Of a DNA stretch of 64,000 nt, positions 22,802 through 27,061 are shown one piece after another. This stretch comes from Solibacillus sp. R5-41. GTDB taxonomy: Bacteria; Bacillota; Bacilli; Bacillales_A; Planococcaceae. The translations under genes were made by a program, and so were the position numbers. The notes below the pieces were generated by a model. It was given only the letters and a program-made list of their open reading frames with translations. It was not told the origin of the DNA and ran no database searches. Numbering within the stretch: position 1 is the stretch's first letter; the number at the start of each line of letters is the position of its first letter. The stretch covers positions 364,001-428,000 of the forward strand of contig NZ_CP024123.1 in the NCBI RefSeq assembly GCF_002736105.1, given 5' to 3'.

Positions 22802-23722
22802 ATGAATTTTTATATTGTAATGCAAGGTCGAACATATGATGAGGCAAAAGATAAACAAGTGATTTGGTGTTCGATTTTCGATAATAGTGGGAAAACACCA
22901 CATTCATGGGAACGAATGAAAGAAGTAAAAAAAGGTGATGCAATTTTTCATTGTGTAAAAGGTGAAATTGTAGCGATAAGTATCGCACAAGAGAATTGTT
23001 TTGAAGGAGTTAATCCGATAAATGAATCAGAAAATTTAGGGAATATGTTCGCAGCTAATTATGAGGAACTAGCAATTTTCATTAATATTAAAGCACATTT
23101 TAATTTCATTAAACCGTTATTACCAGTTAAATACTCACCATTTCAATCAACTGGTGATGGTAACCAAGGCTACTTATACCCTTGTAATGAAATGCTTGCA
23201 ATTAAGCTATTGGAGCTCATTAGTGATGTAAACATTTATGAAGAAAATGAAGAACAGCTTGAATTTGCAATAGGCATGATTGCACTAAAAGAACGCAATA
23301 CATTAGCACCTGTGTTAATTGAAACGGAAGCTGAAGCAAAGGTGAAAATTCGCAAAGGGCAGCAAAAGTTCAAAAAGCACTTAACCCCATTGTGGAACGA
23401 TCAATGTGCTTTGTGTGGTATTACATTGCCAGCATTGTTACGAGCAAGTCACGCAAAACCATGGAAAGACGCAACAGATGAAGAACGCCTCGATCCGTAT
23501 AATGGTATTTTATTGTGTAGCAATCATGATGTTTTATACGATCAAGGTTTTATCACCTTTGATGGGACGGGGAAAATTCATATTTCATCTGAAATTGAAA
23601 AAATGGATTACATAAAATATGGGATTCATGAAAAAATGCGTGTTAACCGTGTGGAAGAAAACAAAAAGTATTTTAAATGGCATAAGAGGAATGTGTTTAA
23701 AGGAAGAAAAGAGGGGATATAA
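22802..23722 (+). CDS. HNH endonuclease with EVE/PUA-like N-terminal domain
   Basis: 306 aa. The C-terminal nuclease domain (about 195-265) fits the HNH_2 type: CALCG, then 'RASHAKPWKDA', 'DPYNGILLCSNHDVLYDQGF'. The first 75 residues read like a modified-base reader of the EVE/PUA class ('WCSIFDNSGKTPHSWERMK', then 'KGDAIFHCVKGEIVAISIA'). EVE-HNH proteins are known as modification-dependent restriction enzymes, so this one may cut modified phage DNA. It converges on the PLD-helicase gene with 45 bases between stops. The N-terminal call is by eye and less certain than the HNH call. Confidence 0.8.
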   Translation: MNFYIVMQGRTYDEAKDKQVIWCSIFDNSGKTPHSWERMKEVKKGDAIFHCVKGEIVAISIAQENCFEGVNPINESENLGNMFAANYEELAIFINIKAHFNFIKPLLPVKYSPFQSTGDGNQGYLYPCNEMLAIKLLELISDVNIYEENEEQLEFAIGMIALKERNTLAPVLIETEAEAKVKIRKGQQKFKKHLTPLWNDQCALCGITLPALLRASHAKPWKDATDEERLDPYNGILLCSNHDVLYDQGFITFDGTGKIHISSEIEKMDYIKYGIHEKMRVNRVEENKKYFKWHKRNVFKGRKEGI

Positions 23723-23767
23723 AAATGGGCTATTGCTATGGTTGTATCCGTAGCAATAGCTTGTTTT

Positions 23768-26635
23768 TTATTCTTCTACTAAGTAATGATAAATATTGTA
23801 TTGGACCGGTTGCTCTAAAATCATCTCCAATGTGACAACAGGATATGACTTACCCTTTTCGGTTACTTGATCTGGTCGAGCAGAATTAGGGTTTACTAAT
23901 CCTTTACCAAGATAATAAAAGTCCTTACCTTCACCATTATCTTTCTTTACAAATAGATAGACATTCGTTCCATTTTCTTTGGAATGAATGAGAGTTTCCA
24001 TTTCTTTAGAATGTAAGTACCTATTTTTTGTAGAGCACCATCTAAATGCTTCAGGTGAAAGGAACTCATCCATATAGTTTGTTTCTGAGCCATCTCCATC
24101 CTTTTTGTGGTAGTTTACGAATATAGGAAAGTCGCCATTTTTAGGGCGACCGCCATTAAGTGTACCTTCTTCGTTTTTATCCCAGTTTAAAATACGACAT
24201 ACTTCGCGACGAGAATATTTTTGGTAAAGTGTAAAAGGCTCGCTGTTGTTATATGCTTTATTTTTAGTGAATGCACATTTAAGTAAATCGACAACATACT
24301 GTTTGAAATTATCGTCTATTAACGATTGTTGAAGTTCATCGTTGAACGTATAAGCATCCTTAATACTAATAACAATAGGTTTTAATCCAAATTTTTTTCG
24401 GTCGTTTTCTACGAAGAAGTTTAAAGAAAATACATTTTCCAAAGAGGTAATTGTATCTTCATCATAGTAAATGGATTTAGCATTTAGCAGTTCTATAAAC
24501 TGTTTCTTTGTTACCTTTTTTTGTTGAATAAGTAACTCTAGTAAAAGTATTTCATGTATACGTTTGCCAGATAATAAATCCTTTCCAATCATCATTAAAA
24601 TTGCATTTTCATAATCAGTGATAGATGAGATAGGTTCTTTGATTTTTAATAAAAAGTCATAATAGGTACCAGCGAAGTTAATGATTACTTCAGGATCTAA
24701 TGAATCATGTATTATAAAATCAAATAGAGTTGGGCTAGTACCAAGACGATTTTTTAGCTCATGATAGTTATCTTCTAAAATTTTCTTAGTAGACAATTTT
24801 GCATTTGAAATAGCATCGAAAATTTGCTTCTTCGCAATTTCCTCAAAGTTAATTGTAGAAACGCCTTGAATATAATCTGTATTTACCGTCTTACGGCGCA
24901 CGTTATCTTTATTCATCGACTTATCACCAGAAAGAGCAATAGGGATTAAATAGTTGTTTTTATAGTTGCCGATAAAATCGATAATCGTCACATATTCTTT
25001 CACATCATGCTTTCGTAACCCACGACCAAGCTGTTGGATAAAGATAATACTAGATTGTGTTTGACGAAGCATAACGATTTGGTTAAGGAAGGGAATATCA
25101 ATTCCTTCGTTAAAAATATCAACTGTTAGAATATATTCAAGCTCACCAGTTTTTAATTTTTCAATTGCATCTTCACGTTCATTTTGAGAGTTATCACCTG
25201 TAAGTGAAATCGTTTTATAACCACGCATATTCAACAAATTAGATAAAGTGCGTGCTTCATCTTTCGTACTACAAAACATTAGGCCGCGAACTCTATCTCC
25301 CGAAAATCCATAGTAAGAGATTTTTTCGATAATATGGTCAATCCGTTCTTTATGAATCAGCTTTTGTAAATCAGCCGTTTCGTCAATTAACTCACCATCA
25401 AGTTCATAATCTGTTACACCAAAGTAATGAAATGGGCAGAGCATCTCTTCCTCTAATGCAGCCTGCAGTCGAATTTCATAAGCTACGTTGTAATCAAACA
25501 GTTCATAAATATTGAATTGGTCTGTTCGTTCAGGTGTAGCAGTCATTCCTAGTAAAAATTGAGGTTCAAAATAATCGATTATTTTTAAATAAGAGTCTGC
25601 TCCAGCACGATGCACTTCATCGACTAAAATATAATCAAAATGATCCTTTGCAAATTGCTGCAAATATGGATCCCGCGACATTGTTTGAACGGTTGCAAAT
25701 AAATAACGTGCATCTGTATTTTTGGAATTACCTGATAAGATACCATAATCATCGGGGTCACCTAATAAAATTTTCCGGAAATCTTGCATAGCTTTCTTTA
25801 AAATCTGTTCACGGTGAACGATAAATAGCATTCTTTTAGGCGCAGCATTTCGAACATCAAATGCAGACAAATAGGTCTTACCTGTCCCAGTTGCAGAAAT
25901 AATAAGTCCTCGATTTGCTCCACTTTGACGAAGTAACCTTAACTGTTCGAGCGCTGCGATTTGCATTTTATTTGGTCGAATCTCTAAGCTTTCCTTTAAT
26001 GGATTGGTCACATATAAAGGTGGAGAAGCTACTTTATTTTGGAATTCTGGCTTTTCATATAATGCATTATATTGAAGAATCCATTCCTCTGTTAAGGTAG
26101 TAGATTCTTGCCAAGCTTGTTCAAATTGATTTTTAAAATGATGAATGACTTCCCCATTTTCAAGAGAAGTTAAATATACATTCCATTCAAAGTTTGCTTT
26201 TAAAGCACTATCTGTTAGATTTGAACTTCCTATAATAAGGGAATAGTGCTGTTGGTGTTCAAAGATATAGCCTTTAGAATGAAATCCTTTTACATCTGTT
26301 ACACGAACTTCTACATTTTTTAATTTCAATAATTCTTTAAACATTTTTGGTTGATTAAAACTTAAGAATGTAGAGGTTAAAATACGGCCTGTAATCCCTT
26401 TTTTCTCAAGGTCATAAAGCATTGTTTTAATTGTTGCAAGTCCACCCTCTGTAATAAAAGCAACGGAAAAGGTGAATGCTTTGCAAGTTTTCATTTCTTG
26501 TAGTAAAGATGAAAGTACATTTTCGTGTGCCTGATTAGATAATAATTTCGGTTTAAACTGAGAAGAAACGGCTTTATTTTGATCGATGAAACCTTTATAT
26601 AATGAGTTTTCAAGCTTTTGTATTAATTGTTCCAT
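23768..26635 (-). CDS. PLD nuclease-SF2 helicase-DUF3427 protein
   Basis: 955 aa. Residues about 40-185 hold a phospholipase D-type nuclease module with one HxK motif ('FHSKGYIF') and GSSN. An SF2 helicase core follows: Walker A SATGTGKT near 245, DEVH near 340, TATPERTD near 368 and motif VI 'QQLGRGLRKH' near 540. The last 330 residues match DUF3427, ending with 'YLFVKKDNGEGKDFYYLGKG'. Restriction-like translocase/nuclease fusions of this kind sit in defence loci. GGTGGAG precedes the ATG; the Nudix gene ends 21 bases upstream, so they form an operon. Defence function is inferred. Confidence 0.88.
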   Translation of the reverse strand: MEQLIQKLENSLYKGFIDQNKAVSSQFKPKLLSNQAHENVLSSLLQEMKTCKAFTFSVAFITEGGLATIKTMLYDLEKKGITGRILTSTFLSFNQPKMFKELLKLKNVEVRVTDVKGFHSKGYIFEHQQHYSLIIGSSNLTDSALKANFEWNVYLTSLENGEVIHHFKNQFEQAWQESTTLTEEWILQYNALYEKPEFQNKVASPPLYVTNPLKESLEIRPNKMQIAALEQLRLLRQSGANRGLIISATGTGKTYLSAFDVRNAAPKRMLFIVHREQILKKAMQDFRKILLGDPDDYGILSGNSKNTDARYLFATVQTMSRDPYLQQFAKDHFDYILVDEVHRAGADSYLKIIDYFEPQFLLGMTATPERTDQFNIYELFDYNVAYEIRLQAALEEEMLCPFHYFGVTDYELDGELIDETADLQKLIHKERIDHIIEKISYYGFSGDRVRGLMFCSTKDEARTLSNLLNMRGYKTISLTGDNSQNEREDAIEKLKTGELEYILTVDIFNEGIDIPFLNQIVMLRQTQSSIIFIQQLGRGLRKHDVKEYVTIIDFIGNYKNNYLIPIALSGDKSMNKDNVRRKTVNTDYIQGVSTINFEEIAKKQIFDAISNAKLSTKKILEDNYHELKNRLGTSPTLFDFIIHDSLDPEVIINFAGTYYDFLLKIKEPISSITDYENAILMMIGKDLLSGKRIHEILLLELLIQQKKVTKKQFIELLNAKSIYYDEDTITSLENVFSLNFFVENDRKKFGLKPIVISIKDAYTFNDELQQSLIDDNFKQYVVDLLKCAFTKNKAYNNSEPFTLYQKYSRREVCRILNWDKNEEGTLNGGRPKNGDFPIFVNYHKKDGDGSETNYMDEFLSPEAFRWCSTKNRYLHSKEMETLIHSKENGTNVYLFVKKDNGEGKDFYYLGKGLVNPNSARPDQVTEKGKSYPVVTLEMILEQPVQYNIYHYLVEE

Positions 26636-26656
26636 TAAATCTCCACCCCAAGATTA

Positions 26657-27046
26657 TTATTGTGTTAGTTTTTCGACAGCAGGTATATCTGCCGGTGCAA
26701 AATCAAGCGTATATAACATATTACGCGGTACCCATTTGGCGTCGGCATGCTCTAATGTAGTGGGGGTTCCTTTTGAAATTTTAGCCATATATGTTTCAAG
26801 ACGAACGATAAATGTCCCATAGTCATATGTAGTATCTTCCACTTTTTCTCCAACTAAAATTTCGCAAGCAAACTCCTCTAATATTTCTCTGCGTAATGCT
26901 CGTTGAGGAGTTTCACCTTTTTCAAGTTTTCCACCTGGAAATTCCCAATAGTTTGGTAGTGACATTTGTGGGCTACGAAGCGCGCAATAAATTTCGTTTT
27001 GTTCATTTTCTATAATGGCTCCAACAACATGTATTTGTTTTTTCAA
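26657..27046 (-). CDS. Nudix hydrolase (MutT/8-oxo-dGTPase-like)
   Basis: 129 aa from a TTG at 27046, which has GGAAGGG six bases upstream; the earlier in-frame TTG at 27061 has no site. The Nudix box is 'GGKLEKGETPQRALRREILEE' in layout (GGKLEKGE then REILEE near residues 39-60), but the glycine expected after REUXEEX is alanine (EEFAC). The 'WEFPGGK' entry is typical of MutT-like enzymes. It leads an operon with the PLD-helicase, so it may sanitise or hydrolyse a nucleotide in that system. Substrate not predictable. Confidence 0.85.
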   Translation of the reverse strand: MKKQIHVVGAIIENEQNEIYCALRSPQMSLPNYWEFPGGKLEKGETPQRALRREILEEFACEILVGEKVEDTTYDYGTFIVRLETYMAKISKGTPTTLEHADAKWVPRNMLYTLDFAPADIPAVEKLTQ

Positions 27047-27061
27047 TTTGAACCCTTCCAA

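Follow-up and report, generated by a model that had tools for sequence, protein, structure and literature searches.

Organization of the locus

The window analysed here, a 64,000-nucleotide stretch of the Solibacillus sp. R5-41 genome, contains a block of three genes (Table 1) with an ABC transporter gene on one side and ctaB on the other. The coordinates and domains that a sequence-only reading had assigned to all three genes were correct by coordinates and by domain profile searches, as were its spacings of 21 nt between the Nudix stop and the helicase start and 45 nt between the convergent stops of the HNH and helicase genes. The open frame of the Nudix gene spans 26657-27061 on the minus strand, with TTG start codons at both 27061 and 27046. 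By eye, 6 nt separate the end of a GGAAGGG motif from the TTG at 27046; a start there yields a protein of 129 residues and agrees with the gene end chosen in the sequence-only reading. The hairpin between the convergent stops came from a search that found three sites against a shuffled mean of 2.5, a result that is weak by itself. The ABC transporter gene was found in 11 of 20 fetched stretches and ctaB in two (L023 and L032), although several of the stretches stop short of the position expected for ctaB.

Table 1. Genes, domains and other features of the block, in window coordinates.
Feature	Position	Strand	Description
HNH gene	22802-23722	+	306 aa, EVE-HNH Type IV restriction enzyme, VcaM4I-like
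Terminator-like hairpin	23721..23768		Between convergent stops
SauUSI-type gene	23768-26635	-	955 aa, Type IV restriction enzyme
Coupler (aa 618-805) and SRA-fold target recognition domain (aa 806-955)	23771..24784	-	SauUSI-derived boundaries
SF2 helicase-like ATPase	24785..25975	-	aa 221-617, boundaries transferred from SauUSI
PLD nuclease domain	26036..26635	-	~aa 1-200 of the 955-aa protein; domain search and SauUSI alignment
Nudix gene	26657..27046	-	129 aa, TTG start; NudG/MutT-like, PADLOC PDC-S07 subfamily

The 955-residue protein is a SauUSI relative

Profile searches of the 955-residue protein identified PLDc_2 (E 1.5e-12), ResIII (E 1.4e-41), Helicase_C (E 5.7e-16) and DUF3427 (E 1.8e-80) domains. 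This helicase fusion has a described counterpart: the PADLOC mREase_IV model PDLC03658 covers residues 1-953 (E 7.6e-285), and the same residues align with residues 1-952 of the S. aureus enzyme SauUSI (PDB 7clg, E 5.7e-276). By these alignments the protein is a full-length SauUSI relative. Its DUF3427 match (residues 683-952) spans the later part of the SauUSI coupler and the target recognition domain, the latter having an SRA fold according to the main text of PMC7913695. Homology to S. aureus SauUSI predicts that the Solibacillus protein cuts DNA containing 5mC or 5hmC in an ATP-dependent manner. Homology to SauUSI and VcaM4I, both characterised nucleases that depend on DNA modification, supports the suggestion that the block holds defence genes.

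By itself, S. aureus SauUSI is described as active both in vitro and when cloned into E. coli (PMC3874153). Based on this, the Nudix protein is not part of the cutting machine and was dispensable for survival in that host, whose own NudG might replace it. Neither Nudix nor MutT nor operon occurs in the main text of PMC7913695.

The Nudix and SauUSI genes form a two-gene module

To follow the pair through the family, DUF3427 was searched in 41 genomes and the Nudix protein (E ≤ 1e-25) in the 25 of these that belong to the family. Both were found in 17 genomes and both were missing from the other 8, an exact co-occurrence with a probability of 1/C(25,17) = 9e-7 (hand arithmetic, uncorrected for phylogeny). 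In 18 of the 20 loci fetched, the Nudix gene lay at most 24 nt from the SauUSI gene or overlapped it; of the other two, one had the Nudix gene at 2.6 kb and one had a DUF3427 fragment with no Nudix match.

The class was represented by an even sample of 398 genomes, in which we required E ≤ 1e-30 for a strong Nudix match and E ≤ 1e-38 for a well-scoring DUF3427 match, and counted a Nudix match as adjacent if it lay no more than 300 nt beyond the C-terminal side of the DUF3427 match or 3000 nt beyond its N-terminal side. A strong Nudix match was adjacent to 88 of the 98 well-scoring DUF3427 matches, a few of which come from short or broken frames (e.g., G422, G541 and G569, the last split over two matches). 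Adjacency held at 56 of 64 matches with E ≤ 1e-60 and at 32 of 34 from 1e-60 to 1e-38, whereas weaker DUF3427 matches were mostly unpaired (5 of 26 from 8.5e-36 to 7.1e-22 and none of the 11 scoring below these). Three layouts were seen among the 88 pairs: in 42 the Nudix gene is upstream of its partner and shares its strand, in another 42 it lies downstream and converges with it, and in 4 it follows downstream in the same orientation. Three of the 10 unpaired well-scoring matches were in genomes with no Nudix match at all. Overall, the Nudix protein was found in 95 of the 98 genomes with well-scoring DUF3427 and in 50 of the 300 others (Fisher p 5e-50, without phylogeny correction). In a sample of 299 genomes of the phylum, a Nudix match lay within 3 kb of 12 of 14 DUF3427 matches at E ≤ 1e-60 and of 7 of 28 others.

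The pairing was also examined from the Nudix side, using 5x1x as query and taking the best 80 of at least 579 relatives with named loci, a set that leans to close kin of the staphylococcal query. A SauUSI relative lay within 400 nt of the Nudix gene at 52 of these best 80 loci; the rest comprised four with SauUSI at 1-2.5 kb, one with an SRA-HNH gene and 23 with something else, including L267, where a DUF3427 gene is truncated at the contig end. Gene calls at the surveyed loci were crude open-frame choices, and several SauUSI frames among the 80 are partial or split (e.g., L233 and L237). The 52 linked loci span Bacillota and Actinomycetota, with Staphylococcus, Mammaliicoccus, Oceanobacillus, Neobacillus, Clostridium, Corynebacterium, Brevibacterium, Microbacterium and Nocardioides among their genera; S. 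aureus is absent from the best 80.

For the phylum sample 95 Nudix loci were fetched and the Nudix frame was found in 90. These had an adjacent SauUSI gene (16), a coupled SRA-HNH or SRA gene (7), a fusion (4) or other neighbours (63). A tally of neighbour families, of which the first 25 were listed, covered 132 neighbours from 74 loci, namely those of at least 100 aa and at most 600 nt away. The idea that most PDC-S07 proteins, the PADLOC subfamily of this Nudix protein, pair with Type IV genes was rejected for the phylum sample on the basis of those 63 loci. In a Nudix tree that is short, fast and poorly resolved, a single supported group, with 97 rows in all, took in 66 of 70 SauUSI-linked rows, and the starred branches forced at least nine changes of the SauUSI label; for these labels L267 was set by hand as SauUSI-linked, and the near loci L258, L264, L274 and L282 were set as other.

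Together, the shared presence in 17 of 25 family genomes and the adjacency at 88 of 98 class matches strongly support, from gene content and order, the earlier proposal that the Nudix and helicase genes form a unit, which we regard as a two-gene module.

The genes themselves are real and mostly known, and their pairing has already been glimpsed in print. The legend of Fig. 9 in Bell 2020 (PMC7641849) identifies small "DNA repair" proteins beside Streptococcus SauUSI homologues as MutT homologues. A 2026 survey of S. suis gives PDC-S07 and Type IV restriction as co-localised in 23 of 23 cases, the only such pair of 24 (PMC12813430), and S. thermophilus PDC-S07 genes are listed in PMC11514479. 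No mechanism for the pair is proposed in the accessible parts of these three papers. Our literature search, whose scope excluded subscription papers and most preprints, found no paper on the function of the Nudix-SauUSI pair or on SRA-HNH-Nudix fusions, and no biochemistry on any SauUSI-linked Nudix protein. The present analysis adds a measure of how widespread the pair is, a further form of it in which the partner is an SRA-HNH nuclease, including fusions, a candidate substrate that can be tested, and the exchange of a reader cassette.

The EVE-HNH gene is an independent neighbour

The 306-residue protein has an HNH_2 domain (E 1.3e-11), and its residues 1-300 align with residues 1-307 of the EVE-HNH enzyme VcaM4I (PDB 6yex, E 2.7e-39); this full-length match to a solved EVE-HNH structure upholds the description of its N-terminus as EVE-like. 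A second Solibacillus protein, in a 348-aa frame (G000:C1:3573526-3573900), shares the HNH part with 47% identity over residues 170-296.

Fifteen family genomes carry both HNH and SauUSI and five HNH only (G012, G013, G015, G019 and G022), so that HNH is present in 20 of 25; two have SauUSI only (G016 and G018) and three neither, giving a one-sided hypergeometric value of 0.17 for the association (hand arithmetic). Within the genus, HNH was convergent with and at most 0.5 kb from SauUSI in 11 of 13 SauUSI-positive genomes, the Solibacillus window included, and lay 1.6 kb (G011) and ~9.6 kb (G002) away in the remaining two. Outside the genus it adjoins SauUSI in G020 and is on a separate contig in G017. 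The HNH gene is thus a stable but independent neighbour, and the module comprises only Nudix and SauUSI because the distribution of HNH differs from theirs. The sequence-only reading had raised the three genes as one system, a unit that we rejected since HNH comes and goes apart from Nudix-SauUSI in the 25 family genomes.

No C5-methyltransferase was identified in the Solibacillus genome at E ≤ 1e-10. In the genus, such enzymes occurred in 2 of 13 SauUSI-positive and in all three SauUSI-negative genomes (10/560 = 0.018, hand arithmetic), a pattern that, with two exceptions, fits a Type IV enzyme that tolerates 5mC marking poorly. In the SauUSI-negative genomes these methyltransferases are found together with the EVE-HNH gene, one of them lying ~4-9 kb from it in each genome. 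In these members, which lack SauUSI and Nudix, the methyltransferases near EVE-HNH (G012:C3:226898-228085, G013:C1:396301-397323 and 413093-414280, and G015:C1:160064-161251) are placed as if replacing the SauUSI-Nudix locus.

A second partner of the same Nudix subfamily

The PADLOC model PDLC03656 (McrA-like HNH) had 13 matches in 12 of the 299 phylum-sample genomes, and a strong Nudix match lay within 3 kb of eight of these SRA-HNH genes, the other five having none. The profile of this partner matches the SRA-HNH part of ScoMcrA (5zmm, E 6.9e-17) and the HNH domain of E. coli McrA (6ghc, E 3e-25). The Nudix and SRA-HNH genes overlap by 4-20 nt at four loci (L073, L098, L105 and L131) and are 125 nt apart at L152. 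At L099:4659-6996 the SRA-HNH gene adjoining Nudix seems, by eye, to be interrupted by a 460-aa transposase-like frame. In two of the eight, L151 and L153, reader, HNH and Nudix are joined in single frames of 414 and 422 aa, and two genomes of one genus have apparent fused frames with a degenerate HNH (L161 and L162, 451 and 472 aa; alignment, by eye). The four fusions form one tree group (support 80), and hence may represent a single event. A further arrangement was an operon at L075:6525-9033 of a GmrSD-type gene, Nudix and a lone SRA-like protein (SAD_SRA E 3.8e-4, under Pfam's cut-off), with overlaps of 10 and 4 nt.

In the phylum sample, 19 of 97 strong Nudix matches were within 5 kb of DUF3427 and eight within 5 kb of PDLC03656, and as a control none of the 53 weaker Nudix proteins among the matches listed was that close to either. 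Another comparison used 41 Nudix-positive class genomes with no DUF3427 match of any kind, nine genomes with only weak DUF3427 being left out; nine of the 41 carry McrC, and none of the nine McrC genes was beside Nudix. A role for the Nudix protein as general partner of every 5mC nuclease was not supported, given this McrBC result and the independence of EVE-HNH.

Individual loci showed other arrangements. The Nudix gene adjoins an McrBC pair in Romboutsia (L275:7591-11218) and Vsr and DrmB genes in Neobacillus (L279:7649-10038). At L124:6572-7375 a single frame of 267 aa joins it to a C-terminal segment resembling, by eye, a DUF523 domain.

Relationships of the Nudix protein

The Nudix protein contains a NUDIX domain (E 7.2e-15) and matches the single-protein PADLOC model PDC-S07 (PDLC04899) over residues 6-133 on profile positions 3-129 of 135 (E 4.4e-51), PDC presumably denoting phage defence candidate. 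The nearest solved structure is 5x1x, "Mutator mutT protein" (E 7.7e-37), and further matches include MutT (1mut, 3.1e-15) and NudG (2rrk, 1.1e-14). The NCBIfam model TIGR00586 (MutT, 8-oxo-dGTP diphosphatase) was a near miss at 91.6 bits for a cut-off of 97.9. PRK10546 (pyrimidine (deoxy)nucleoside triphosphate diphosphatase) gave 84.8 bits, below its cut-off of 156, for which reason we call the protein NudG-like and not NudG. Judged by these comparisons, NudG would not be singled out, MutT scoring slightly better in both NCBIfam and solved structures.

The Nudix box is kept. The residue in the column of NudG Asp118 and MutT Asn119, which is expected to set base choice, is Asp in every one of the 90 aligned members and also in the Solibacillus protein, unlike the Asn of MutT. 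This Asp is no signature of the pairing, as 63 of the 90 members that share it are unlinked to Type IV genes. Two other NudG residues, Arg72 and Arg77, were present in none of the 27 Type IV-linked members of the alignment. The accessible text of PMC5158307 gives E. coli NudG a kcat/Km of 1.3e6 M-1 s-1 for 5-methyl-dCTP and 4.7e4 for CTP; MutT2 is reported to digest dCTP too. Of the two options that the sequence-only reading had offered for the Nudix enzyme, we infer that consumption of a modified nucleotide is better supported than consumption of a signal.

Exchange of the SauUSI reader half

Thirteen SauUSI relatives, 12 of the genus and one from G020, were compared. The nuclease and motor domains of the Solibacillus protein are 93% identical to those of G003 (L023), whereas the couplers are 45% and the SRA domains 53% identical. 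The same contrast was seen between G001 (L021) and G006 (L026), whose nuclease and motor domains are 98 and 99% identical and whose coupler and SRA domain are 47% and 53% identical. G001 and G003 have a common reader type (SRA domain 86%, coupler 68%), so that the other reader half is seen in two of the 12 relatives from the genus. At the DNA level, the drop in identity is limited to approximately the last 900-1000 bases of the SauUSI gene (about 23720-24750 in the comparison with G003), and between G001 and G006 identity regains 88-94% in the HNH gene beyond the exchanged block. The Nudix gene was not exchanged along with the reader half. These alignments indicate that the coupler-SRA half is a sharply bounded cassette exchanged between sister species. 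Type I enzymes change target by recombination, and the exchange seen here points to the same ability in Type IV enzymes.

Proposed role of the Nudix protein

Type IV enzymes are regarded as able to do without a protective partner, since host DNA lacks the mark that they read. Our preferred reading, to which we give an even chance, is that the locus consists of an independent EVE-HNH enzyme and a Nudix-SauUSI module in which the Nudix protein would be a self-protection partner that clears 5-modified dCTP. We infer this substrate and purpose from the identity of the parts, their co-inheritance in several layouts, and the association and fusion of the same Nudix subfamily with a second kind of SRA nuclease. 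As in S. aureus SauUSI, the enzyme would read modified cytosine through its C-terminal SRA-type domain, be moved along DNA by its SF2 motor and cut with its PLD domain. The Nudix protein would hydrolyse 5-substituted dCTP, namely 5-methyl-dCTP and perhaps also 5-hydroxymethyl-dCTP, to the monophosphate. Modified cytosine that the cell recovers by salvage as foreign or phage DNA is degraded would thus be kept out of the host chromosome, leaving no mark there for the host's own SRA nuclease, and the Nudix protein would be the protective partner of a restriction enzyme without a methylase. Self-protection is the simplest purpose for a putative remover of 5-modified dCTP beside nucleases that attack such cytosine. 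Among the counterpoints, the cell's own EVE-HNH enzyme should pose the same problem of self-harm, yet it is not tied to the Nudix gene, and neither is McrBC (0 of 9 McrC genes adjacent).

The same substrate, suggested by the Asp at the NudG position and by NudG kinetics, would also serve an offensive purpose, in which the Nudix protein destroys modified dCTP made by the phage while SauUSI cuts DNA that already holds the modification, giving two anti-phage layers. Phage kinases for 5-methyl- and 5-hydroxymethyl-dCMP have been reported (PMC10742078, in the parts accessible to us), and the Nudix protein matches a PADLOC defence-candidate model. However, a phage left unmodified would be hidden from SauUSI, so the two arms would conflict unless the phage needs its modification to replicate, and we consider this reading unlikely; the Nudix-nuclease fusions favour neither purpose. 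We are similarly sceptical that the Nudix protein is a general MutT-like sanitiser (of 8-oxo-dGTP or CTP) or acts on the ATP/dATP supply of SauUSI or on a signal. The slightly higher scores of the MutT models and structure and the other neighbours at 63 of 90 phylum-sample loci would suit such a role, but the 90 aligned members have Asp in place of MutT's Asn119, and a general sanitiser leaves unexplained a pairing with SRA nucleases that is absent in the 53 weaker Nudix proteins among the matches listed.

Hitch-hiking, in which two genes that were neighbours in an ancestor are passed on together without any joint function, would account for much of the count as inheritance, as 66 of 70 SauUSI-linked rows are in one group and the four fusions may be one event. 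It is less readily reconciled with the three gene layouts, the exact co-occurrence in the 25 family genomes, the separate SRA-HNH link with its single-frame fusions, and the nine or more changes of label in the short, weakly resolved tree, and we think it improbable, more so than either of the preceding alternatives. A generalization of self-protection is that SRA-reading Type IV enzymes constitute a restriction-sanitation class, with a dedicated Nudix protein in place of a methylase, that SauUSI, SRA-HNH and SRA-GmrSD adopted separately and of which the fusions would be the clearest form. We put this forward tentatively and with less confidence than self-protection itself. If self-protection is true, a conserved pool enzyme beside Type IV enzymes would mean that the mark also reaches the host through salvaged nucleotides, and it would help to explain, in physiological terms, why bacteria have 5-methyl-dCTP hydrolases, enzymes whose role is still unsettled on our reading of the literature.

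Comparison with known systems

The Solibacillus SauUSI-type protein has the same order of PLD, SF2 ATPase, coupler and SRA domain as SauUSI, in one chain of ~953 aa. Its PLD catalytic residues (HxK and SSN...E) and Walker A motif are kept and, of the pocket positions, F841, D858 and W868 are identical and I842 is V (alignment, by eye). It differs in having G829 for Y831 and N827 for M829 (by eye), such that the modification read may differ from that of SauUSI. A further difference is the exchange of its reader half, as the main text of PMC7913695 contains neither "recombin-" nor "swap". The HNH protein resembles VcaM4I in joining an N-terminal EVE domain to a C-terminal HNH domain and in keeping the positions of Q128 (intercalating), Y130 and W22 (by eye). 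P24 is Ser, E15 is Ala, and W82 lies beside a gap and is not kept (by eye), and specificity may therefore differ from that of VcaM4I. The McrA-like SRA-HNH proteins (ScoMcrA, 5zmm; PDLC03656), which are absent from the Solibacillus window, are the second nuclease type joined to the same Nudix subfamily. Lastly, the Nudix protein shares with E. coli NudG/Orf135 (2rrk; a pyrophosphohydrolase of 5-methyl-dCTP, dCTP and CTP) the fold, the Nudix box and the residue at the Asp118 position. It is a distant relative, no nearer to NudG than to MutT, in which Arg72 and Arg77 are not kept, and E. coli nudG sits between ynjF and ynjH and not beside a Type IV nuclease.
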